NCBI GenBank assembly: GCA_963971425.1
Contig: OZ020520.1
Location: 7,358,553 to 7,422,552 of the forward strand
DNA: 64,000 bases
Reading direction: 5' to 3'
DNA from: Bryoerythrophyllum caledonicum
Lineage: Eukaryota; Streptophyta; Bryopsida; Pottiales; Pottiaceae
How positions within the stretch are numbered: position 1 is the first letter of the stretch; each line of letters opens with the position of its first letter. A program made the position numbers and the translations under genes. The notes under the pieces are model-generated. The model ran no database searches. It was given only the letters and a program-made list of their open reading frames with translations, and was not told the origin of the DNA. Positions 10,946-63,545 of this stretch are shown here, piece after piece.

Positions 10946-10961
10946 CAAGTCGTATCCATCT

Positions 10962-11497
10962 CTTCTTCTTCTTCTTCTTCTTCTTCTTCTTCTTCTTCTT
11001 CTTCTTCTTCTTCTTCTTCTTCTTCTTCTTCTTCTTCTTCTTCTTCTTCTTCTTCTTCTTCTTCTTCTTCTTCTTCTTCTTCTTCTTCTTCTTCTTCTTC
11101 TTCTTCTTCTTCTTCTTCTTCTTCTTCTTCTTCTTCTTCTTCTTCTTCTTCTTCTTCTTCTTCTTCTTCTTCTTCTTCTTCTTCTTCTTCTTCTTCTTCT
11201 TCTTCTTCTTCTTCTTCTTCTTCTTCTTCTTCTTCTTCTTCTTCTTCTTCTTCTTCTTCTTCTTCTTCTTCTTCTTCTTCTTCTTCTTCTTCTTCTTCTT
11301 CTTCTTCTTCTTCTTCTTCTTCTTCTTCTTCTTCTTCTTCTTCTTCTTCTTCTTCTTCTTCTTCTTCTTCTTCTTCTTCTTCTTCTTCTTCTTCTTCTTC
11401 TTCTTCTTCTTCTTCTTCTTCTTCTTCTTCTTCTTCTTCTTCTTCTTCTTCTTCTTCTTCTTCTTCTTCTTCTTCTTCTTCTTCTTCTTCTTCTTTT
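10962..11497 (+). repeat. (CTT)n microsatellite, about 178 units
   Basis: An almost pure CTT/GAA trinucleotide run of about 535 bases. The long open frames across it in several phases (Leu, Glu, Lys or Arg homopolymers) are a consequence of the repeat and not genes. Confidence 0.97.
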
Positions 11498-17400: not shown

Positions 17401-19266
17401 TTGTGTATATTTATCGTTGTGCCTATCAATGGACATAATGTTTGTGTCCTTCACATGGTATTCTTCTCCATTTTTTTTGTTCCAGTGAACAAACTATTGA
17501 ATCATGGAGGCAAAACGATATGTGACTTCACAAGCTTGGCACTTGCTGATTCCATTCTTCATTTGGTTGCACAGAAAACTCACCTCTCACTGGAAGGTGA
17601 AGGATATAAACTCTACCGACCAAAGAGTGAGAGGCCTTTGCCCTTTGACACCAACAGAAGTCGGTATTTTCTTGAAGGCCTTGGGTTATCCGAAGACCAC
17701 ACCCATTTACATTGCTGCTGGGGAGATCTATGGCGGTGATGAACGAATGGCAGGTCTTTTATCTCGTTATCCAAACGTCATGCGAAAGGTTAGCCCAATC
17801 ATTAGCCATTCAAGAGCCATAACTCAATATGACTTCTCCTTCATTCTGAAAGGCAGCCGAAACCAGTTTTAACTCGAGTTTAGAGATCACCAAGCTCTTT
17901 TATTGATTTCATAGCTATCAAGAGTGAGGAACGAGTAGTAGTATAATTATTCAAACGAGGGTATGTTGTTGAATTTTTTTGGTGACTTTACTGTCTTGAA
18001 AATGCATGCAGGAGACTTTAGCGACGCCAGAGGAGCTTGCACCATTTGTCAAGCACTCTTCGCAACTGGCAGCGTTGGATTACATCGTTTCTGTGGAGAG
18101 TGATGTGTTTGTGCCCTCGTACTCTGGCAACATGGCACGAGCGGTGGAAGGACATCGACGGTACCTCGGCCACCGCAAAACAATCACCCCAGACAGGTCT
18201 ATCACACACCAATTTTTTTTTTCTTGGAGTTTCTTTATGTAGTCACCCAAAGTTTCAACTATACCCCCTCTTTTGGTTTCAATTCTACTCTTTTTTCACT
18301 CTTGATAGCTGTTAGACTAGTGGAAGAGCTTGGTGGTCTCTAAACTCTCTAAAGTTAGAACTAGTTTCACGAATGACGAAAGGAGAGGCATTATTTTGAA
18401 AGTCACCCAAAGATGCCCTCTCTTTTGATTTTAATACTACCTTTTTTTTCACTCTTGATAGCTATTAGATCAACCGAAGAGCTTGGTGGTGTCTTTACTA
18501 GAAATTATTTCAATTAAGTCAATGGAAGAGTCACTTAACTCAAGTCAGAACTAGTACCAGCTACCTTTGAGAATGATGGAGAGGTCATGAATCTTGGCCG
18601 AATTTTTTCCCCTTTGAGATATTCAGAGCTGTTTTTGAACAAAACCCGTGGTATCTTTGCCTCACTTTACAAATACCTCTATTCTCTTTACAAAATGTTG
18701 GTCCTGTATTTTGACACGACCCACTTGTTGGTACAGGAAGGAGCTTGTAGCTCTTTTTGACAAGCTGGACACTGGAGATCTCACCGAAGGCCCAGAGCTT
18801 GCAGAGTTGATTACAAACATCCATAGACGGCGGTACATGCTCTTTTTACCTTGCTTTGTGATTATGAAAGTATGAGCTGATAGAATCCATCTGTAAAGTC
18901 ACCTACAAAGTTAACCCCTCTTTTGAACCATCATACTACCATTCATTCACTGTAAATGGTTGTTTCTTCACTGCAATCACTAGAATCCTCGTGAAACTTT
19001 CCCTCTTATCTTAAAAACTTTGTTTTCACATCAGGCAAGGAGCGCCGCGGAAGAGGAAGGGTCCCATCTCAGGGTCCAAAGGGAAGGACCGGTTCCGGAC
19101 TGAGGAGGCGTTCTACACGAATCCGCTGCCGGACTGCTTGTGTTCGGAGACGGACCCTATCAAGCCCGGTCCCAAGAAGACTAGTAGTAGTAGTAGTACC
19201 AGAGAGAATCACGTCAGGCAGCTGAGGAGTTGGGAGGAGCAGCAGGGGTGGCAGCATAGACATTAG
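14404..19266 (+). CDS. GDP-fucose protein O-fucosyltransferase family protein, 12 exons
   Basis: Predicted exons: 14404-14643, 15241-15339, 15691-15772, 16014-16081, 16412-16500, 16602-16782, 16993-17121, 17265-17398, 17575-17788, 18012-18196, 18737-18832, 19035-19266. All introns are GT-AG, the phases agree, and the sum is 1,749 bases (582 residues), close to plant family members. The start is set by a TGA just upstream of ATG; Met11 is an alternative. Residues about 34-58 form one hydrophobic span after a basic stretch, as in a type II Golgi protein. Seen motifs: [119 protein letters not shown] and [18 protein letters not shown]. The family transfers fucose or related sugars from nucleotide donors, and many plant members act on cell-wall glycans; the acceptor here is unknown. 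The C-terminal tail is Ser/Lys-rich. Confidence 0.93.
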
Positions 19267-23544: not shown

Positions 23545-24235
23545 TAGCTACCATCTAGTGTGCCCACCTCGAGCATTCATAACAACCATCAAACGGAAAG
23601 GCATGCTAAAAATGAGAGTGTCTATAATCTCTTGACTCACACCTTCCTATGCCCATTGAATGGTTTTGACCAGTTCTTCTTAATTCTTTGGTAAGACCTC
23701 CTTTTTAACAAAGTCTTTTACTACCTTCCAAAGGTTTCCAATGGGATTCAAATTTGGCAAATTTGGAGGCCAATTGAGCTTCTTCATACGATGCGCTTCT
23801 CTCCAAAGCCTTGGTTGGCTATTTTGATGTACTAGAGCTATTTTGATGTCCAGGAGTATTAAGTTGCTACGGTCCTTGTGCATAAAGTTAAACCCACTCA
23901 ATCGACTTTCGTAAACTAGTTTTAACAAACCATTGCTTGTCCATCTATCAGAAGACATGATAATTGGTGGACATATATCAAATCGTGTAAAGGCACCCCA
24001 TACCACGACCGGTGTGCTGCGAGACTTGAATGATGGTGCTAAACATTTCCAACAATAGCGTTAATAAGATCGACGCCAAACCTTCACTTTGTAACACTTT
24101 GACACTCAAGTTCAATAAACCTCATACCTTAAACCTTCCTCCAATTTTGCAACTTCTTTCTAGTATACAAAAGAATGTTGCATCCCAATCTATAATCCGC
24201 CTGAAAAAATGTGCAATCTTTTCACCAAAATCACC
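23545..24235 (-). pseudogene. Decayed Tc1-like transposase
   Basis: The minus strand translates, with several stops and shifts, to a relative of the intact transposase at 29167-30186. Matching pieces include VWRRSY, CLAPSFKSRSTPVVVWGAF, ESRLSGFNFMH, LWREAHRMKKLNWP and NLWKVVKDFVKKE. The catalytic region is damaged: NPIEN has become NPIGN, and the second aspartate motif (EDGALVH in the intact copy) is altered. The N-terminal helix-turn-helix part was not found. No terminal repeats were recognised around it. Confidence 0.85.
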
Positions 24236-28949: not shown

Positions 28950-31062
28950 CAGTACCCGGCAAGTCTGAATGGTGCAGTCACTGGTTCTACTGAAATTCAG
29001 CAGTGAACTCGTAACTTCAAAATCACACCACAGGCTCAAAAATTCATGAAATTGCAAACCGTAAATTGGATTTGGAAGATAGAGAAGTCTAGTTTTGAAA
29101 AACATTGATTTGTTATATTGAAAAATTTAAGAACATACAACAATAGTGCATTTTGTAGCACACTATCTACCACCTCGTACTACCACCTCTCGCATTAATT
29201 ACAGCCTTCATTCGGTGAGGCATGCTAGCAATGAGAATGTCTAGAGTCTCCATAGATATGGCTTCCCATGCCTGCTCAATGCTCTTGACCATTTCATCTT
29301 TGTTCTTTGGCCTAGTCTCTTTCTGTACAAAGTCTTTTAAAATCATCCACACATTCTCTATGGGATTCAAATCCGGTGAATTTGCAGGCCATATAATCTT
29401 CTTGATCTGATGCGCTTCTCGCCATTGTTTTGGTAAGCTACTACGATGCACTAGGGCACCATCCTCCATGAGATGAAGACTTTGAGAATTATCATGCATG
29501 AAGTAAAAGCCACTCAATCGACCCTCATACACAATGTCAACGAAATCGGCACTTGTTCGTCTATCAAATGGCATAATAACAATGGGGCACTTCTCATAAC
29601 CTGTAAAAGCACCCCAAATCATAACGGATGTCCGTCCAGATTTAAAAATGGGTGCTAGGCAATCCCATGAGTAGCGTTCATACGCTCGCCGCCAAACTTT
29701 GACTTGCCGGTAATTCTTGCCTATCTCAAATGAGGACTCATCTGTCCATATTACATTCATCCAATCTAATACTTCCCAAGTCTCATGTATTCTAGCAAAT
29801 GCCAATCTATCAGCTTTATGCTTGTCATTAAGAAAAGGCTTCTTTGTTGCAACACGACTACCAAATCCAATACGTTTAATCTCCTTCCTTAACGTGCGCT
29901 CACAAACTTTCTCACTCATCTGTTCTATGATGGATACAAGTGGAATGTGTCTATTTTGTGTAAGAATGCGATCCAATTCCCTCCTATCTTGATCATTCAA
30001 TTTGCAATGTCGGCGTTTAGCCTTTCGAGTGACCACTGTTCCATCTCTACGGAATTTTTTCAAGACATTCTGAACGGTAGTATGTGGTATGCCTAACTTA
30101 ATTCCAATGCTACGTTGTGACATGCCTGAACAACTCATTCCAACTATGATGCCTTTGACCTCTGTACTCAAACGACGACCTCCCATTTCTCACAAATTCA
30201 AAACACAATGAAATGCACCTCAAAATGAAAAAGTTAACCACTTCAAGATGCAATGAATTACCTGGCCCAACATAACACCACAATAAAAATAACACTAGTT
30301 AAATTACAACCATGATCTCTTTATCTAAGCATTAGCACTTGATACTCATTTCGACTTGCACCTGATACTCATTACGACTTGCATCCCATACTGAATCAAA
30401 CAGGTAGCTATATAACTCATGTATACAATCAAACAACAAAATCAAAACTGAATCAACCACAATTTCAATAAAGAGTTCAAGTTTCTTGTTAAGCTAGCTC
30501 TATTGAGCAATTTCATTCAAAGTAACTCCAATCTAAATTAGAAGCAAAGAGTGTGCACATACCTTCAAACAGACTTTAGAATCTCCTCAAAACTTTGATA
30601 CAAATTACACAATTGAAATGAATTTTGTTCCACTCAAAAACCTCCAAAATCTGATGCATGCATAACTAGAATCCACTATCAACAAAAACTCAAACGATCA
30701 CCATCTAACCAAATGATATTTGAAGTGGTTCAATCCACTCACAAGCTCCATTTGTACAAAATTTCAGCTCAATCTAAGCAAATCTGTGGCCTCCATGTGC
30801 ATCGATATTTCTTGAAGTTGTGTACAGGTTCTGCCACCGCAGCAACACATGTATCTTCATTTCGATTGATATGGATATTTTTGAAATATCTCATTAAATG
30901 CTCAACGACACTTCTAACTAGACTACTAGTCCTACCTAACAATACTAATTACAACTTCTAGGTCAAAGAGGTGGAAAGGAGAGAGCGATTCAAAGTCACA
31001 GGACCGCCGCTTCAACAAAACGTGGTTCAGTTCGTTGCACCATTCAGACTTGCCGGGTACTG
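28950..31062 (-). mobile_element. Apparently complete Tc1-like transposon
   Basis: Perfect terminal inverted repeats of at least 27 bases (CAGTACCCGGCAAGTCTGAA, then TGGTGCA) at 28950-28976 and 31036-31062, each next to TA (28948-28949 and 31063-31064), the Tc1/mariner target. The 2,113-base element encloses one uninterrupted transposase gene at 29167-30186. Perfectly matching ends and an open frame argue for recent arrival. DD34E Tc1 elements are typical of animals and other non-plant eukaryotes; plants mainly carry mariner relatives with a DD39D triad. Confidence 0.92.
29167..30186 (-). CDS. Tc1-like DD34E transposase
   Basis: 339 residues, a normal length for Tc1 transposases, open from ATG to stop. 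It cuts the transposon out and joins it to TA sites. Residues about 1-110 contain two helix-turn-helix-like units (GMSQRSIGIKLGIPHTTVQNV and a second around RRELDRILTQNRHIPLVSII) for binding the terminal repeats. The catalytic core shows IWTDESSFE (first Asp), MEDGALVH (second Asp) and, exactly 34 residues on, the Glu in PDLNPIENVW: a complete DD34E triad. The middle contains VWRRAYERYSWDCLAPIFKS and MIWGAFTG. A decayed paralogue lies at 23545-24235. All key residues are present, so activity is possible (inference). Confidence 0.93.
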   Translation of the reverse strand: MGGRRLSTEVKGIIVGMSCSGMSQRSIGIKLGIPHTTVQNVLKKFRRDGTVVTRKAKRRHCKLNDQDRRELDRILTQNRHIPLVSIIEQMSEKVCERTLRKEIKRIGFGSRVATKKPFLNDKHKADRLAFARIHETWEVLDWMNVIWTDESSFEIGKNYRQVKVWRRAYERYSWDCLAPIFKSGRTSVMIWGAFTGYEKCPIVIMPFDRRTSADFVDIVYEGRLSGFYFMHDNSQSLHLMEDGALVHRSSLPKQWREAHQIKKIIWPANSPDLNPIENVWMILKDFVQKETRPKNKDEMVKSIEQAWEAISMETLDILIASMPHRMKAVINARGGSTRW

Positions 31063-37003: not shown

Positions 37004-37515
37004 ACCATTCATCCATTCTATGATTGATCCAGATTACAGCACACATTGGAGCTTGTGTATGACCAAGCAGGACTGGTTCAAGCGCATGATATAGTGCGCC
37101 AAATATAAGCAACAGCTTTGGACAAAGTCATAATCTGACACCTTTTCATAATCTGGTAACCTGAGACAAAAGTCTGTTACGAGTCCGTAACGTTAATCGC
37201 TTAACAAAGAGAAGTACAGACTCCACTTCACAGGATCCTTCCAGCCATTCACATAGATTGCTGCCACTAATCACCTCAGCCGATGCAGCTACCAAGCCTA
37301 AATGATACAAAATCAGCAGCGCGTTGTAGTACTCTCACAAGCCTGGTGCCAGTTTTCCTGACCACAAGCACGCGCTCTCCCAATTTCATATAGCTTGCAA
37401 CTGCCAGGGAGAGCAGTACAACGACGGCTCTGGCGAATTACAAGAAAGGTCTGGAGGATGCAACAGCTCACATGGCATCACGTGAAGATTCAATTTCAAT
37501 GAAGATGGACTACTC

Positions 37516-37521
37516 TTTATT
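37516..37521 (-). terminator. Candidate polyadenylation signal
   Basis: AATAAA on the minus strand, suitably placed to end the TAS-like transcript. Confidence 0.4.
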
Positions 37522-37786
37522 CATGAAGTCGTTACATTTGGATGTTCACATGATCTTCGGTTGCATTTGAAGGAGCCGCAAATGTACGAGGACACAAAAA
37601 ATCTGAAGCTCCGGAGGACGTACACGTGAAGAAGTAAATGTGAATTAGCTGTTATAAGAACCAGGGTGAACAAGCTAATCCTACATCTTGCTAGCCTAAC
37701 AAATATACCGTGCAGCGTCCAGTAATGCATGATAAGAAATTTGACAAATCATTCAATCACTTAAGAACAGTGACAAAACCGGACCG

Positions 37787-37850
37787 ATTCCACTATGCAA
37801 GTAAGCTCGCTTTTTCTTGTGCCATAAAAATAAAAAATAAAAAATAAAGA
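37787..37850 (+). mobile_element. Short retroposed 3' end with AAAAAT-type tail
   Basis: Reads TCGCTTTTTCTTGTGCCAT followed by a repeated AAAAAAT tail. Near-direct repeats AACCGGACCGA and AACCGACCGA flank it. It lies within the 3' part of the TAS-like locus, on the opposite strand. Confidence 0.6.
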
Positions 37851-38359
37851 ACCGACCGAGACCAGTAGCCAAGAAAGGTTGGCACTGAGATGAACCAAAG
37901 AATCACTTTCAACAAATCCTGTGCATCCTAGAACTGTCGCAAATCATTCAACCAATTCCAGCATATTCTGCAACTAAGCACGGTTTGAACTGTAATCATT
38001 GACAACAAACCCTCTAGTATCCAAGCAAGGTCAGACCGGTGACGACAAGTCATTCAATCAACTATAACATGAAACTCTGCATCCAAATAAGAACAGCAAC
38101 ACAACATTCAAATCATCAAGCCTCACTGCACGGAAAGGAACTGTGACAAGTTACTCGATCACTTCCTGAACCAGTTGGCTCAGTTGAAGACTGCTGCAAC
38201 CACACCAAACATTCAAATAACAATGCAACTCCATTGACACAAGATCCTCAAGCTGCAAGGTGGGAGACAATCCGCTTTTTATTATCACAGAAGGCGGAGT
38301 GTCACATTAGTGGTAGATCCACGGACGGAAGTAAAAAATGAATAAGCTGCTGCAAGCTT

Positions 38360-38380
38360 TAGCTCAGGAGTGATACGTAA
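38360..38380 (-). promoter_or_regulatory. miR390 target-like site, downstream copy
   Basis: The plus strand matches miR390 at positions 2-11 and 13-16, with mismatches at 1, 12 and 17-21. The target on the minus strand therefore pairs with the seed and the cleavage region but not with the miRNA 3' end. Partly paired miR390 sites are a known feature of TAS3. Confidence 0.6.
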
Positions 38381-38388
38381 CCAACACG

Positions 38389-38414
38389 GGCCGTGCAGGG
38401 ATCTGCACGGCCCA
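38389..38414. repeat. GC-rich hairpin between the miR390 sites
   Basis: GGGCCGTGCA and TGCACGGCCC are a perfect 10-base inverted repeat around a six-base loop. A second, weaker hairpin (GGTGT...ACACC) lies at about 38505-38532. Confidence 0.8.
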
Positions 38415-38565
38415 TGTCACAAGGGTAGGTGGGCTCGCCAGGGGATAAGCGCCGGGTAAAGCACTCATCACACCCTACGGAGCCATAGCTGACGACTTAC
38501 GGCGGTGTGCCAAGCTCTAGTGCTTAACACCCCGCTAACAAGGCGCCCGCCGCGCCCTCCCCTCG

Positions 38566-38586
38566 AAGCTCAGGAAGGATAACGCC
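38566..38586 (-). promoter_or_regulatory. miR390 target-like site, upstream copy
   Basis: The plus strand equals miR390 except for A instead of G at miRNA positions 11 and 17. On the minus-strand transcript both become G:U wobbles, leaving no true mismatch over 21 bases. Confidence 0.8.
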
Positions 38587-39026
38587 CCTAGCAACTAACT
38601 CTCCCGTGGTGGAATGGTCATCGATCTCTCCCTCAACTACGCACTAGAGACCTCACCACGTCGACGACGAGAGCGCCTCGCAGCTAGAACCGGAGGTCAA
38701 AAGAAACTCGTCCCTGCCGCGACGCAGAGATCGGAGTTAACCATTGCTGCATGCGAAAACACCAACAAAACACTCAGAGACACTCACTTCACACGATTAA
38801 ATAACACCAGATACTACCAGCACGTAACAGCAATCCCAAATATAGTAGTCCGCGAATATCCCAGATACCAGCCGGTGCAATGACCGCCGTTACTGGAGTG
38901 TCTGTAACGTAACAGAAACCATTAACAAACAGAAGAAAAATTTGACCCGGCATACTAGCTAGTACTGACACGACAAGCTGCTGCTGGGGTGGCGTACCTG
39001 AAGGGACCACCGCGCGCGATGGACCT

Positions 39027-39046
39027 TGACAGAAGAGAGTGAGTAC
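39027..39046 (-). promoter_or_regulatory. miR156 target-like site
   Basis: The plus strand reads TGACAGAAGAGAGTGAGTAC, which differs from the canonical 20-base miR156 only at position 18. The minus-strand transcript would pair over 19 of 20 bases, including the cleavage positions. No miR156* partner lies nearby, so a target is more likely than a precursor. Confidence 0.75.
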
Positions 39047-39105
39047 CACGGCTGTGGAACCGGCTGAAGAATCGGCCAGACGAAGTGATCAGGTGACATT
39101 TGAAG

Positions 39106-39126
39106 AGGTGGTGAGAGAGCACAGCA
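39106..39126 (-). promoter_or_regulatory. Weak miR529-like match
   Basis: Plus-strand AGAGAGCACAGC with its preceding G matches positions 7-19 of bryophyte-type miR529, but positions 1-6 fit poorly. It lies close to the predicted transcript start. Its value is mainly positional, since TAS6 carries a miR529 site near its miR156 site. Confidence 0.3.
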
Positions 39127-39160
39127 GCAACAATGCCAGGAGTGAGCTAGCAGGATGTAC

Positions 39161-39167
39161 TATATAG
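39161..39167 (-). promoter_or_regulatory. TATA box of the TAS-like locus
   Basis: CTATATA on the minus strand, about 30 bases before the assumed start near 39130. Confidence 0.5.
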
Positions 39168-39744
39168 AAGCTCCAGATTCTCGACGTGCGGACGCCGGGT
39201 CCCGGCGGCACGCCTCTGCTTCGGACACGCCCAAGGCATAGTGGATGTGAGGCAGAGGCGCAGGTGACGCTGCACTCTTAACGAGAGTGCGCCCGAGCCT
39301 GGCGCCGGACCTGGAGAGAGATTCCGACTAAATTAGCTTGATTTTTGCTACTTCATCAACTGCTGTGCATCGTTTTCAAGGTGGTGCCGGTTTGGATTTA
39401 ATTCATCTGGCGTGAAAGTTATAATGCGCCTTCGTCGTCGTCGTCGTCTCTGGGAAGTTACGCTGGCGTCACGTCATGCTGACGTCCGCCGTGCTCACGT
39501 TCTTACCTCCGTGGATGTTTTTTTTTCTTCCTTTACTCTTTTGTTGCCATTTAGGTGGTGGTACTGTAGTAGGCACTGTTTTTTTAATTTCTGGAACCTC
39601 TATTATCACTGGCTCGGGAACCAAGGGGTAACTATGTCCCCATTAGGAAGTGTTGTTATAAAGAATTGGTTTGAACTGATTTGGAATGATTGTGATGCCC
39701 GCTCATATCACGATTTTGAGGGCAGCAATTCCGAAATCACTTCC
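39168..39744. other. Promoter-side sequence of the TAS-like locus, no gene seen
   Basis: GC-rich to about 39310, then ordinary sequence. CGT repeats cause a short Arg-rich frame near 39424. Confidence 0.4.
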
Positions 39745-44338: not shown

Positions 44339-45821
44339 GAGCATGGCCACTGGTTACAAGCGGCCCGGGGGGATTGCCGCCGGTTTGTGGCCTAGCCAAG
44401 GCGAGCCTCACCCGCGCCTGGTCACGACATTGCATGAATTAGGTGGGTAGAACTCCAAAGGCCAAAGTTACCACCTTATCACCACATGAACACACTTTTA
44501 CTACATGAAGTTAACGAGCTTTCACCGTTGATTGAAAAGCAAGTTGTCATTTCAGCGTCCGCAACCAATGGTCAACAACCGGATAACTAGACTTGGCCCA
44601 CTGCCCTTCCAACAACAAAGTAGACGGAGGGCAACCCGGAGGCTTGTTTGGTGCGGGATTGGAGCCACATAGGTGATCGGGGGGAACTGCAGGGAGAAAG
44701 CCCCCACGCCATCTGTTCAGTCTGCGAACGAATGAGGGTGCTCTTATGATTTTATGTCGGTACCTTAGACATAATGGAGAGGGTGATTGGGCTTGGAAAA
44801 GGTGGGGCATTCATAGGTTAGTTCTTTAGGAACTTGGAGTTCTCTAGGTAGCTTCAGAGCATCGCCAATAGTCACAAAATCGGTCGCTGCAATTGGAGAA
44901 TATAGTGCGACTTGGTCTTAAAAGTGGAAAACAGCTCCCCACAATGCTCCAAAATTGTAAAAGCGTTGTTTATCTCAGGGCCTCTTTACACTAGAGGCAA
45001 GAGGCCGTGAGGAGAGAAATTTCAGCCAATGGGAGGCGTAGAAATCGAGAAGACCAAAGAATGTCACTTTACACCCGATTTTTTCAGCCCAAGGGACGAA
45101 AGAGGAGAAAATGACATGGACAACACTTTTGTCCTCCGTGGCAACGAAAGTGCATAAAAATGAGGGCCCCCGGAATTATAGTTAGGCCTACCTCAAGAGG
45201 TGGGCCTAACTAAAAATCCGGGGGGCCATTGGCCAAAAAACTCACAACCAATCATTTAAAATATTTAAAGATGAATTTTGAAAAAGCTCAACATTGGAGC
45301 TTTTGGCCTTCTCTCACTTTACACCACACCCAAAGGCCATGGCTTCTCAAGGATTGGCCTCTCAAGAATGTGCCATGGCCCAAGTGGAGTTTGGCCGGAG
45401 GCTTCTCGTTTGTAATGTAAAGAGGCCCTCAGTGAATGTAGAATCTAACACCACATGGAACGCCTGTAAGCATGTGTTTTTTCCTCACTTTATCTTGTTC
45501 AAGTAATCATAGCATGTGGCAAAGTTGATTTAGATGTTTAATGGTAGTATATAGCCTTGCCAAGGCTAATGTTGAGGGTTCAAGTCCCTTTTTCTACTTG
45601 GTTATTGTTTAGTTAGTTTTCTCTTCTCTCCCGATATTAAGTGACATGGACCAATGAGAATTTTTTACAATGTGGACCAACCAAAGAAATTTTGGAGCAA
45701 AATTCTAAGGGTTGTTGGGGCAATTTAAATGGGAAACCTCCAAGATATGGTTGCAGCACAAAAATAGCCATTGTAAAAGCCACTTTCAGGGGCTTCAAAT
45801 CAACAACTATTGGCCATGCTC
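44339..45821 (+). mobile_element. Possible composite Harbinger-type element N
   Basis: GAGCATGGCCA after TTA (44336-44338) and TGGCCATGCTC before TTA (45822-45824). An alternative left end at 44857 (GAGCATCGCCAATAGT) pairs over more bases with the same right end but has TCA beside it. Either way, element P is nested inside. No transposase was recognised. Confidence 0.5.
44978..45428 (+). mobile_element. Harbinger-type MITE P
   Basis: Ends GGGCCTCTTTACA and TGTAAAGAGGCCC, with TCA at 44975-44977 and 45429-45431. The centre holds a palindrome (TTAGGCCTACC...GGTGGGCCTAA with CCGG flanks). It is non-coding. Confidence 0.85.
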
Positions 45822-51510: not shown

Positions 51511-53063
51511 TAAGACATGGTTATTTGAGGCGAGCAGTGGATGTTGGACAAGACAAAAAATGAATAAAGCAATGCATGAAGAAGTCTTGACCGGTTAGTA
51601 GTGTAAACACCCAACAGTGAAGTCCACCGGCCAACTTCATAAGGTGAAGACCACGGGTGAACTTCACCACCAAGAAAGTTTATGCTAGCCTATGGAAACC
51701 ACAATTTCTAATAGTCCCATGGACATATTATGTACATTATGGGCTCCGTTGAGCTACAAAAATTTATATCTTTTGCATAAAATGTCCAAATGTAGTAACA
51801 ATTGTTGGGAAAAAATGCCCCTACTTGTCTAGATTGTGTGGTAAAAATTTCACATGAATATAACATACATGCTGTTAGCACACACAACCATGTTATAATT
51901 GATCTGTTTCAAACCTTTTAATTATTTGCTTGCCTTTTCTTCAATTACCACATAAGGCTTGTTGATGTTGACATTAGTTTAAGTAACAACATATCTTATT
52001 GTGGGTTGTACTTAATAATTTTTATACTACAAAAAAATTCGATTCGGTTGTTCAAAATTTGTTTACCAAAAGTACATCAGGAAAATAGAAGGCACTTTTG
52101 TTCATATGTAAAATATATCAAAGATATATGTTTCTTATGGTCATATAGATTCCATATGGGTCATAATTGCATTCCATATCAATATTGACATAAAATCAAT
52201 ATTGTTTCAATCCTTCTTGAGATCATATTGTAAAAAGACAATATGAAGGTATACAATATTTTCAATACAATAATTATAAAATTGAAATATGAAAAATAAC
52301 ACATCATTTGAAAAAAATATTTAGTATGAAACTTTAGGACATTGTTTTTTTATGTGGACAATAATCGACCCAACTAATAGAAATGAAATGATTTTTGCAC
52401 ATTGGAAGAGTGTGAAAAAGAAATCTCAAAAGATTTCAATATAAAAATAAAAATAAAAATAAGATAAACCTTGACAAGGATTGATGTCCAAATATAAGGT
52501 CAAACTCAAAAGCAACTATTTTAAATAAAACATGTACCATCAATATAAGTTGTTTTTTTTTAATTCCTTCCCGCTTTTTGCTAATGTCATCTTGTCTTTT
52601 CCTTTCAATTTATTTATTGCGCCAACTCTTTGTAGATGAAAAATCATTTTCCAAACTTGCTTTTGATTTCTTTGAACAAAGGACGGATATCTTCCATCTA
52701 CTTAATGTTATAAGGTCCCCCATGCGTTCTTGGCCGCAATCACCTTTCAAAATCTATACATTTTACATCAAGTGTAAAAATGTAGTAAAACTTGTTGGAA
52801 AAATGGTCCTACTTGTCTAATTTGTGTGGTGAAAAGTTCACATGAATTCAACATAGTATTACAATGTAATTTTGAGAGCCCATTTATTACACCGGGTTGA
52901 CTCTACTTCTTGTATTAAAAACTCTTGTATAGAAGCCATCTTCATAAAGAAAAAGTAACAAGTAGTAAACTCCTACCTGAAACACAAGCCCCACAATCAT
53001 GTCATTCACAATTAAAGAACAATTAAAAATCAATAGCTACAAAAATTTGCAAATATGCAAAAT

Positions 53064-53510
53064 CCCCTTCCATTAAAATGCACGTAACTCACTCAATACT
53101 AATTGAACTAACTTGAAATTTGTACCACATAAACTCAACAAAACTGCGCATCTTTGTGAAGAACAAAAATTAAAAAAGAACCTTCCACCAAGAAGTTACA
53201 GCACGCCAAAGTTGCAGTGTTCAAAATTGACCCTGAATTTTTGGCGGAACCCCCTTCCACTAAAATGCACGTAACTCACTCAATACTAATTGGACTAAAA
53301 TAAAATTTGTACCACACAAACTAGACAAAGATGCGCATCTTTGGAGAAAACAAGTGTTGAAAAAGGACCTTTCACCAAGAAGTTACAGCACGTCAAAGTT
53401 GCAATGTTCAAAACTAACCCTGAATTTTTGGCAGAAGCATCTTCTACTAAAAATGCACGTAACTTATTCAATACTAATCGAACTGACTTGAAATTTGTAC
53501 AACACAATCT
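53064..53510 (+). repeat. Tandem repeat of about 186 bases, 2.4 copies
   Basis: Units start near 53064, 53250 and 53437 with 'cttccattaaaatgcacgta'-type text. They share 'ccaagaagttacagcacg' and 'accctgaatttttggc'. Located inside element R. Confidence 0.85.
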
Positions 53511-54179
53511 AAAAAAAAAGTGCAACTTCCTCAACATTTTTTTTCAAAATAGACACTTATGGAAGAAGAAGCAAGAACTTGAGCTATAGTAAAATTAAGA
53601 AAAATCTAGGTTTTTTTAGAAGCATCCAATTAACCATCTATGTAAAAAGATTAGAGAACTCACCAAGAGTGCTTTGGCAACTGAAGATTTCCACAGAGTA
53701 ATGCAATGCCAAAGAGAAACACCTCTTTGGTGATGCAAGTTGTATCTGAGGGCTTGTAACGGAAGTGCAAATTTATAGGGGGAAAGAATATTTTAAGTAA
53801 GTTTTTCTTCTCCATTGTTTTGGTTTCTTGTCCGGGGGGTTGAGGTCGGACAAGAAACTAATCCAGAGGAGAGGAACTCTTCCAAAAGGTGTTGCCACAT
53901 AGGCATCCATGTCATTTTTTCATTCATGCTTGAAATACTTCATCAGTCAAGAATTGACCGTACTGTAAACCCAATCCGATGAAGAACAAATTGATCTCCA
54001 ATCATACTGCTCCATTTCCCTTGAATTCTTGGTCGGTGGAGTTCTCCACCATAGTCTAAAGCGGGCCTTTGACTTTGCTAACACATACATAAATTTGCTA
54101 AAATCCAAAAAGTAATTATTGATTGGCACTTTTCACACTATAGGTTTTGAAAGTGGTTCTGTTGATAACTAAAACTAAA

Positions 54180-60658: not shown

Positions 60659-62171
60659 TTGCACCGATCCTTGCCTTCAACCAAAGCTCAACTTAGTGGA
60701 CCAGGGAGGAAGAAGATACTCATCATCGGTGCCCCTCCAAAGGTAAGTTTTCTCCCTCTCTCCATTTTCAATCCAACATCTTGTTCTAACATGACCAGCT
60801 ATAAAAGAAACCTACAGTTTGGAGAAATGATGGACATCGATGAAAGAGTCATAAACAAAGAATTAACTCTAAAAGAAAAAGTAGTTGGGAAAATTATGGA
60901 GGAGCTAGGCAGCAGCAAGAAAATTTTATTACCAAATGGTACCCACCTCATGAACAAAGACAAGTACAAAAAATACCACTCACCACCCTCAAAGCTAATT
61001 AAAAGTGCTCTAAACTAGCTAAAAACTATTTTGCCATCCCGAATGCTAGGATACATGCCCTCACCCTAGCAATGTTCACCCAAATCCTTGTACACTACAA
61101 GACAAATACATATGCCTTAATGACCACACACTCCTTTAATATTATCCCATCTATTCACCCCCCCCCCTGACCCCCTCCCGGCGCACAAAATACTTTTTTA
61201 CCACCGCACCGCATCCTAGACAACCCAATAAGATACCCAATAAATACCATTTCAGACCACAAACATCGCCAACACAATGACACCAACAACATTAAAAAAG
61301 TAGTCACCTCCTATTTATGTCAATGGAATATTCAACAACATACCTACAACAAATGGCTACCACAAGGTAATTTATTCCAATGGCACGACCCCAACACCTC
61401 AAAACACAACATAACATGCCTTGAAAAATACTACCTACAAAGGAAACACCGATATCTCCACAACATTATCCAAATATACCACCTCCAAGAACAAAACGGA
61501 TACAAGATTTATTCCACCTCCTTCACATGTCCCCCTAACGTACATCTCCTCCATTGAATGCAACCCATACAATGATATAGACACACATAAGTACACCATA
61601 CAAATTCAACTTGACCTTGTCCACATACACAACAACAATGGTAAATACCTTATAACAATACCATTGACTACCAGACTACATTGGCTTTGGATCCAATATC
61701 AAAATGTTTTAAACTCCCCCCATAACCTAGAACCAATAATCCAACCATTCCAAACATAAATTGTTTGGCTATATCAAAGATACAAATACAAAATATCAAA
61801 ACCAAACCCCCTAAAACTAGCACAATATACATTATCCACAAAACTACTTAACTTTATCACCGAAACATTTGGCATTGAACACTCCTACTTCTCATCTACG
61901 GTTACATGCCCCAAAAATCTCACAAAATATTTCTCCCCATTTACAAGAGACGCAATATTTGGCTCATTACGCAAGGTATTTGAATTCAAATGGATATGCA
62001 TCAGATACGCACACCCCCACAACAAAGAAGACATCCAACAAACTATCCATTGGGCCAAACTAGCAGCTAAAAACAACCCATCAAACATAACATGTATGGT
62101 CATCCTAGACAACAAATGGTACGAAAACACCAACCGACACCAGGGCCATTTCCCGGATACCCACATAATAA

Positions 62172-62743
62172 GGGCCGCTTCACACTATGCCCAAGTCGAG
62201 TGACCGTCTGTCAAAATGAGTGGCCAAACTATGGTGAGAGGCTCAACTTTTTGCCAAAAAAATACAGTAAATAATATTGATTAAGGTTGGCCGGTCATGG
62301 TGTGAAGCCCCAAAGGCCAAGTCCAAAGTCCAAACCCCATATCACTACGCCAAAAAAGATCAGCCCAAAAAAACCAGCCAATAAAAATCAGCCAATAAAA
62401 ATCAGCCAATAAAAATCAGCCAAAAAAATTAGCCAAAAAAATCAGCCTTAAAATTCGGCCTCTTTCATCTAACGGTCTAGATCTTGTCTGTTTTTTATTA
62501 TTTTATTAAAAAAATTGATGGACTCTCGATTGTAGTTTGAGTTGACTAAAATGGACGACCGAAGTTTTGCTCGAGAGGCCGTCGCTTTGGCGCCAAAACA
62601 ACCCAAAAGTGCTATGTTGGACGACGGCCTTTGGAGTTTGGGCACAAGTGTGAAGGCCCAAAGTCTGGACTTTGGTCATTCTAGCAATCTCATTGCTGGA
62701 AATCGACAGCCACTCGACTTGGCCACCAAGTGTCAAGCGGCCC
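62172..62743 (-). mobile_element. PIF/Harbinger-type MITE, copy 2
   Basis: Ends GGGCCGCTTCACACT and TGTCAAGCGGCCC, with TAA at 62169-62171 and 62744-62746. It is the reverse complement of the 231-807 element over its whole length. With one TAA kept, the interrupted LINE frame continues in phase (THII then SLFDTNT). The internal tandem array is at about 62359-62448. Confidence 0.92.
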
Positions 62744-63069
62744 TAAGTCTTTTCGACACTAACACAGTCGCATATACAAAACCCACCACACTAGAAGAAT
62801 TTTAAAAATCCAGAAAAGAAGCGAGAACAGAAGCCTTTATACTACAGATACTATGCATATACCACCAAAACAACACAATTGGCACACACACCGCACTAGA
62901 ACAACTTAAAAAAATAGCCAACAAACTAAACATAAGATAACGCTACAAAAACATAGCCCTACCAACACCACTCCCCATAACAATCAACAGTTACAAACAT
63001 TGGAAAACAATTAGTTATCCAAAATTCACTCCAAATAAAACAAACAACACCATACCTCTTCCAAATTTC

Positions 63070-63545
63070 AACACAATTTCCCCTCTCAAATTCAACCGTG
63101 AACACTGCTACTACACAAACGGCTCATTTAAAGAACCCACTCAAACTAGTTTTGGAGAATAGCAAAGTAAAAAAATTCGGCTATGGAATTTACAACGCCT
63201 CAAAAGAACTAGAAGTCTCCAAAAAACTCCAAGGACTACAAAACATACTTAGAGCAAAAATGATGGCCATCCATAAAACACTCCGGATCCTAACCACCAA
63301 ATATCCTATTGAGCCCGCAAACATCTTTACTAACTGCGTAAACGTACTATACCTATTAAATACACAAATACAACATCCATCCATGCATAACATCCACCCC
63401 AACAAAATCATCCTTGAATCAATGGTACGAATGCTACAATCATGAACACAACCCACTAAACTCAATAAAGTGCAAGCCCATGCCAACATTTGCATGCAAC
63501 GAGAAAGCTGACGAACTAGCACAAAGTGGCAAAGACAAAGACCAT
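63070..63545 (+). pseudogene. RNase H domain remnant of the LINE-like element
   Basis: YYTNGSFKEP (normally YTDGS), then after a shift GYGIYNASKEL, LQNILRAKMMAIHKTLRIL (normally R-A-E-L/M), IFTNCVNVLYLL (normally TDS), KVQAHANI and, after another shift, NEKADELAQSGK. The order and spacing fit RNase H of non-LTR elements. Three of the acidic catalytic positions are Asn, Lys and Asn, so it is dead. Confidence 0.75.

Follow-up and report, generated by a model that had tools for sequence, protein, structure and literature searches.

When a non-coding stretch of a moss genome carries words that resemble target sites for several small RNAs, it may be a working gene for trans-acting siRNAs, the remains of such a gene, or an accident of base composition. 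Which of these applies is the question raised by a locus at 37490-39170 of the window, by which we mean the whole 64,000-nt stretch analysed here (C8:7358553-7422552 of a 437-Mb genome, searched in 894 contigs). The simplest account, judged from the sequence, is a moss TAS6/TAS3 composite gene, read from the minus strand and working, whose miR529 site is impaired. We hold it almost certain that the locus is TAS6/TAS3 by descent, and think it probable that it still works as a composite gene in this form.

Target sites on one strand of a GC-rich island

The original prediction described a minus-strand locus with two miR390-type sites and a miR156 site, lying in a GC-richer island without coding frames. 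Both the island and the lack of frames were confirmed: GC content is 0.55 in 38300-39330 versus 0.39 for the window, and the longest open frames in 37481-39180, counted without requiring a start codon, reach 99 codons on the minus strand and 94 on the plus strand. The sites themselves were borne out when both strands of the window were scanned with eleven plant small RNAs, using a plant target score (1 per mismatch and 0.5 per G:U pair, doubled at nt 2-13). Read along the minus strand, their order is miR529-like, miR156, miR390 and miR390 (Table 1), the first of which the earlier inventory had missed.

Table 1. Features of the locus in window coordinates, ordered along the minus strand.
Feature	Position	Strand	Remarks
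TATA-like element, candidate core promoter	39161..39166	-	TATATA; weak
miR529 target site of TAS6, with 6-nt insert	39102..39125	-	plus strand GAAGAG-GTGGTG-AGAGAGCACAGC
miR156 target site of TAS6	39027..39046	-	GTACTCACTCTCTTCTGTCA; 1 mismatch; the window's best miR156 site
Candidate small intron between TAS6 and TAS3	38747..38997	-	donor CAG/GTACGC, acceptor TTTTCGCATGCAG; sequence only
5' miR390 target site of TAS3	38566..38586	-	GGCGTTATCCTTCCTGAGCTT; 0 mismatches, 2 G:U; has counterparts in C4 and C3
Candidate phased siRNA with shared block (moss tasiAP2 position)	38454..38474	-	GTGATGAGTGCTTT; register D5(-) from the predicted 3' cut
Candidate antisense tasiARF	38414..38434	+	matches class-B ARF L031: 4.0 in register, 3.0 shifted 1-2 nt
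Strong hairpin directly 5' of the 3' miR390 site	38384..38417	-	inverted repeat I3; -32.1 kcal/mol, z -7.1
3' miR390 target site of TAS3	38360..38380	-	miR390 nt 2-11 paired; TATCNCTCNTGAGCTA form common to C4 and C3
Candidate poly(A) signal, nearest AATAAA	38278..38283	-	weak; another at 37516-37521

The 5' miR390 site, the best for this miRNA in the window, scores 1.5, and the miR156 site, which pairs at 19 of 20 nt with a duplex energy of -30.6 kcal/mol, scores 1.0; after 2000 rounds of dinucleotide shuffling of 37490-39170, the best scores on either strand were 5.5 and 3.5, respectively. The 3' miR390 site is weaker (score 8, 7 mismatches, poor pairing outside the core) but its core is intact, and shuffling the adjoining 301 nt 5000 times recreated these 10 nt only twice. 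Because a second minus-strand place, 37626-37606, also scores 8.0 for miR390, the score alone does not distinguish the 3' site, which is set apart by its unbroken core and by the identical site form in two paralogs. In moss TAS3, the two miR390 target sites share a strand and are separated by about 190-290 nt; in the window the site-to-site distance is 227 nt. Of the features by which TAS3 is recognised, dual miR390 sites on one strand, a non-coding sequence and miR390 encoded in the genome are present, as is, of those of TAS6, a miR156 site upstream of TAS3 and on its strand.

Across the genome, the pattern of the 5' site occurs at six places and its reversed controls at none. Four of the six are in MIR390 hairpins (three arms and one star arm); the others are the window and C4:9782969. 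The 3'-site pattern occurs at four: the window, C4, C3:28890732 and C1:12174485. We dropped the last as a fourth TAS3, in that it has the 3'-site pattern alone and lacks both a 5' site (cut-off 8) and the shared block. With 38300-39180 as query, a DNA search returned no match in the genome besides the window itself. If the miRNA-like words had simply come together by chance within a GC-rich island, it would be no surprise that the region abounds in TATA, AATAAA and donor-like words, or that one further miR390 site of score 8.0 falls inside the locus. The shuffles, the genome-wide counts with their empty reversed controls, and the existence of two paralogs of the same architecture nevertheless disfavour chance assembly, which is very unlikely from the sequence counts already and, all told, scarcely credible. 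A MIR390 gene at the locus was also rejected, since its two miR390-like sequences are direct repeats (D7) and Rfam, at gathering scores, matches nothing there.

All three trigger miRNAs have candidate genes in this genome. Perfect complements of miR390 number three, each folding as a MIR390 hairpin (-48 to -62 kcal/mol), and all three places with the miR529 pattern fold as MIR529 hairpins (-70 to -76 kcal/mol). The miR156 pattern occurs at six places. One is the window and one a MIR156 hairpin (-60 kcal/mol); three more code for ALSLLSS, which we take to be the SPL motif, and the last, on C15, is unassigned. The three SPL-like places were examined only around the site, and two have identical translated context. 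The place on C15 (C15:8031766, minus strand, L016/L017) is a miR156/miR529 site outside this SPL-like context, and the 9.5 kb around it contains no miR390 site scoring below 8.0. Some of the hairpins are paired: two MIR529 hairpins on C11 (C11:827420 and C11:827612) lie 192 bp apart, two MIR390 hairpins on C15 (C15:13735594 and C15:13736078) lie 484 bp apart, and an apparent MIR529 pair exists on C2 (C2:32644919), its second unit being known from sites alone. The presence of miR156 and miR529, along with TAS3 loci of this kind, indicates that the genome is very probably that of a moss and, going by the TAS3 5' sites, probably not a Sphagnum. It is also very probably not P. patens: for one of the two PsaL copies, that on C1, the four best PDB chains are the P. 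patens chains 8htu, 7xqp, 6l35 and 7ksq, and in the alignments with the first three the C1 protein is close to them without being identical.

The signals that would frame a transcript are less telling. The TATA box and the more distant AATAAA cited in the original prediction are present, and another AATAAA lies nearer to the TAS3 sites; they carry little weight, since TATAWA occurs 69 times and AATAAA 51 times on the window's minus strand. The splice-donor-like CAG/GTACGC at 38998 is likewise real, and is one of 16 donor-like words in 38560-39060. The candidate intron that it would open (exon end 38998, acceptor GCATGCAG, exon start 38746) has ends picked by eye among those 16 donor-like and 18 acceptor-like words.

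In a working gene, a non-coding transcript would start slightly downstream of the TATA-like element, near 39135. From the pairing, miR156 would cut it at 39036/39037 and miR390 at 38575/38576 and 38369/38370; RDR6 and SGS3 would then copy the fragments, and DCL4 would dice them into 21-nt phased siRNAs, as in the known pathway. Matches to the XS domain (SGS3 family) occur at 8 places in the genome.

The remainder of the window holds several unrelated features. An open frame of 339 aa at 29167-30186 on the minus strand encodes a transposase of the Tc1/mariner type (DDE_3, HTH_Tnp_Tc3_2), and what appears by eye to be a fragment of a second copy lies at 23680-24060 on the same strand. On the plus strand lies a partial GDP-fucose protein O-fucosyltransferase at 17501-17869 (Pfam O-FucT, E 2.8e-13). 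The same strand matches PCIF1_WW (E 2.3e-8) at 61760-62200 and then, weakly, RNase H (E 0.056) at 62981-63442; this stretch, strongly skewed in GC and AT, is perhaps a mobile element. Tandem repeats occur at 10961-11495 (TCT x178, 100% matches) and 53057-53519 (187-bp unit, 2.5 copies, 83% matches). At gathering scores, the sole Rfam match in the whole window is a tRNA at 45536-45590.

The interrupted miR529 site

An unusual element of the locus is its miR529 site, which lies at the expected 5'-border distance but is interrupted by 6 nt. Its flanks correspond exactly to miR529 nt 2-19, and the insert reads GTGGTG. When inserts of 1-12 nt are allowed, this is the only split miR529 match within the window, and its minus-strand 13-mer GCTGTGCTCTCTC appeared in 0 of 2000 shuffles. 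Pairing of the split site with miR529 yields -29.9 kcal/mol versus -43.6 kcal/mol for a perfect site. With this interruption, miR529 has probably ceased to cut the site, and it is probable that TAS6 depends here on miR156 alone.

Loss of cutting need not mean loss of binding. With miR529 nt 2-19 all pairable, the insert would form a 6-nt target bulge between miR529 nt 6 and 7, and the insert might thereby have turned the site into one that is bound but uncut, making TAS6 a two-site, one-cut precursor or the site a partial decoy of miR529. There is a model for such a two-site, one-cut arrangement in angiosperm TAS3, which has an uncut 5' miR390 site. We regard this conversion as rather improbable; if it did occur, miR156 would set the register, and miR529 would merely help to recruit the machinery or be titrated. 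The split site is a natural experiment on whether TAS6 requires both of its sites to be cut, a single cut site, or a cut site together with a bound one.

Paralogous TAS3 loci and candidate siRNA targets

In all, we found three TAS3 loci in this genome. Besides the window copy, those on C4 (236 nt) and C3 (202 nt) both carry two miR390 sites and a 14-nt block that is common to all three and lies about at the tasiAP2 position of moss TAS3. In the window this block belongs to register 5 from the predicted 3' cut (GGTGTGATGAGTGCTTTACCC), and in C4 and, by the same arithmetic, C3 it belongs to register 6. The offset of the block within its 3'-cut register is 3 nt in C8, 4 nt in C4 and 5 nt in C3, such that phase is held only within 2 nt. 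The 14-mer occurs at seven places in the genome, three of which are the TAS3 loci, and its reversed control at three; at the other four places (about 620 nt each), no AP2 domain was recognised by eye.

The siRNA from the shared block would occupy the position that tasiAP2 has in mosses, but a search of six AP2 stretches, of 48 AP2 matches listed, yielded no target for it. These stretches span 2.6-6.2 kb and may not hold whole genes; and the AP2 scans, like those of single ARF genes, demanded exact pairing at 2-4 central positions, such that targets with wobble pairs there would be missed. One AP2 match of score 5.5, in L054, was discounted because by eye it is apparently intronic.

For the ARF genes there is a candidate. 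The eleven PF06507 matches group into six ARF loci; a single locus, C8:12393217 (L031), has the class-B motifs and is presumably class B. An antisense siRNA from the window copy matches this locus just after the ARF domain, at the codons for RPPTLVT (Table 1), and should, if produced, silence it; in the other five loci, nothing in the 260 nt that follow the corresponding motif scores better than 7.0. The window's two candidate siRNAs are 19 nt apart. The ARF match supports the TAS3 assignment and is not decisive, since 1 of 16 mononucleotide-shuffled TAS3 sequences reached 3.0 or better at some place among these loci, and since weaker matches of the unshuffled sequence (4.0-5.0) occur off the motif in L030, L033 and L034. 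The window copy is the only one of the three TAS3 loci with an siRNA match to the class-B ARF, the siRNAs of C4 and C3 giving none at 5.5 or better when exact central pairing was required.

That TAS3 exists without TAS6 in this genome is evident from the paralogs: no miR156 site was found around the C4 locus (9.5 kb, cut-off 8) or the C3 locus (8.5 kb, cut-off 6), and the window copy is alone in carrying miR156/miR529 sites, an arrangement seen in published TAS6-TAS3 composites of mosses. By extension, the window copy might itself be a working TAS3 only, with its miR156 and split miR529 sites either the remains of a TAS6 that makes no siRNAs or a plain miR156 target. The interrupted miR529 site fits this possibility, as do the two paralogs; a miR156 site that retains all but one of its pairs and a strong duplex argues for use, and on balance we consider a TAS3-only locus unlikely. 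It is more improbable still that the whole TAS6/TAS3 locus is decayed and has lost its transcription. The split miR529 site could be read as a step in such decay, but the locus has kept its miR390 cores, miR156 site, shared block and candidate tasiARF, and it is this copy, alone of the three, that matches the class-B ARF. The original reading of a TAS3/TAS6-like locus on the minus strand is supported by the order and spacing of the sites, the hairpins of the trigger miRNAs, the two paralogous TAS3 loci and the candidate ARF target.

A second unusual feature, beside the split miR529 site, is the strong hairpin next to the 3' miR390 site. Hairpins at the equivalent position are weaker in C4 (z -2.5) and C3 (z -2.0); at all three loci the z-scores are flattered, the folded stretches having been trimmed by hand around the hairpins. 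The three sequences barely align at this point, yet each TAS3 locus has a hairpin there, and its presence merits comparison across mosses. Neither the split miR529 site nor this hairpin is mentioned in the parts of PMC5907777, PMC3835848, PMC3565333, PMC10721683 and PMC5902766 covered here, and we make no claim that either is unpublished.

Comparison with known TAS systems

Angiosperm TAS3 has dual miR390 sites and an ARF target, the former in common with the window and the latter matched here by a candidate. Unlike angiosperm TAS3, the locus is without an angiosperm-type tasiARF: the best scores for it in the window are 7.5 and 8.0, and the six best places for each form all lie outside the locus.

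Among mosses, the locus is a further copy of a known type. It had been supposed that an unannotated relative here would put the module in another lineage; this novelty is not supported, since such loci have already been described from Bryopsida, Tetraphidopsida, Polytrichopsida, Andreaeopsida and Takakiopsida, five classes of mosses (PMC5907777). Moss TAS6 is reported there to span 95-192 nt and TAS6/TAS3 in total 724-1590 nt (Table 3 of PMC5907777). In the window, the distances from the miR529 site to the far ends of the miR156 site and the 3' miR390 site are 99 and 766 nt, and both are within these ranges, the comparison being one of lengths only. Sphagnum TAS3 likewise has dual miR390 sites and is 277-292 nt long versus 227 nt in the window, and in the available part of the same source the TAS3 of S. 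fallax is without a reported TAS6 signature nearby (PMC5907777). The Sphagnum primer form of the 5' miR390 site was absent genome-wide in a covering pattern search.

A close counterpart is TAS6a-TAS3a of Physcomitrium patens (Arif et al. 2012; Cho et al. 2012, via PMC5902766, PMC3565333 and PMC5907777). There too, miR529 and miR156 sites lie upstream of a dual-miR390 TAS3 on one strand, and TAS6a is reported to be separated from TAS3a by a small central intron (PMC5902766), where the window has its candidate intron. In P. patens TAS3, one siRNA block is followed by the tasiARF at a distance of 20-30 nt, just above that separating the block and the candidate tasiARF here. Unlike TAS6a-TAS3a, the window copy has a 6-nt insert in its miR529 site. 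P. patens is described as having six TAS3 loci, three of them linked to TAS6, whereas of the three found here one is so linked. What this genome adds is one copy of the moss TAS6/TAS3 module in its full genomic context, alongside hairpins for its triggers miR390, miR156 and miR529 and two TAS3 paralogs that are without TAS6 sites.
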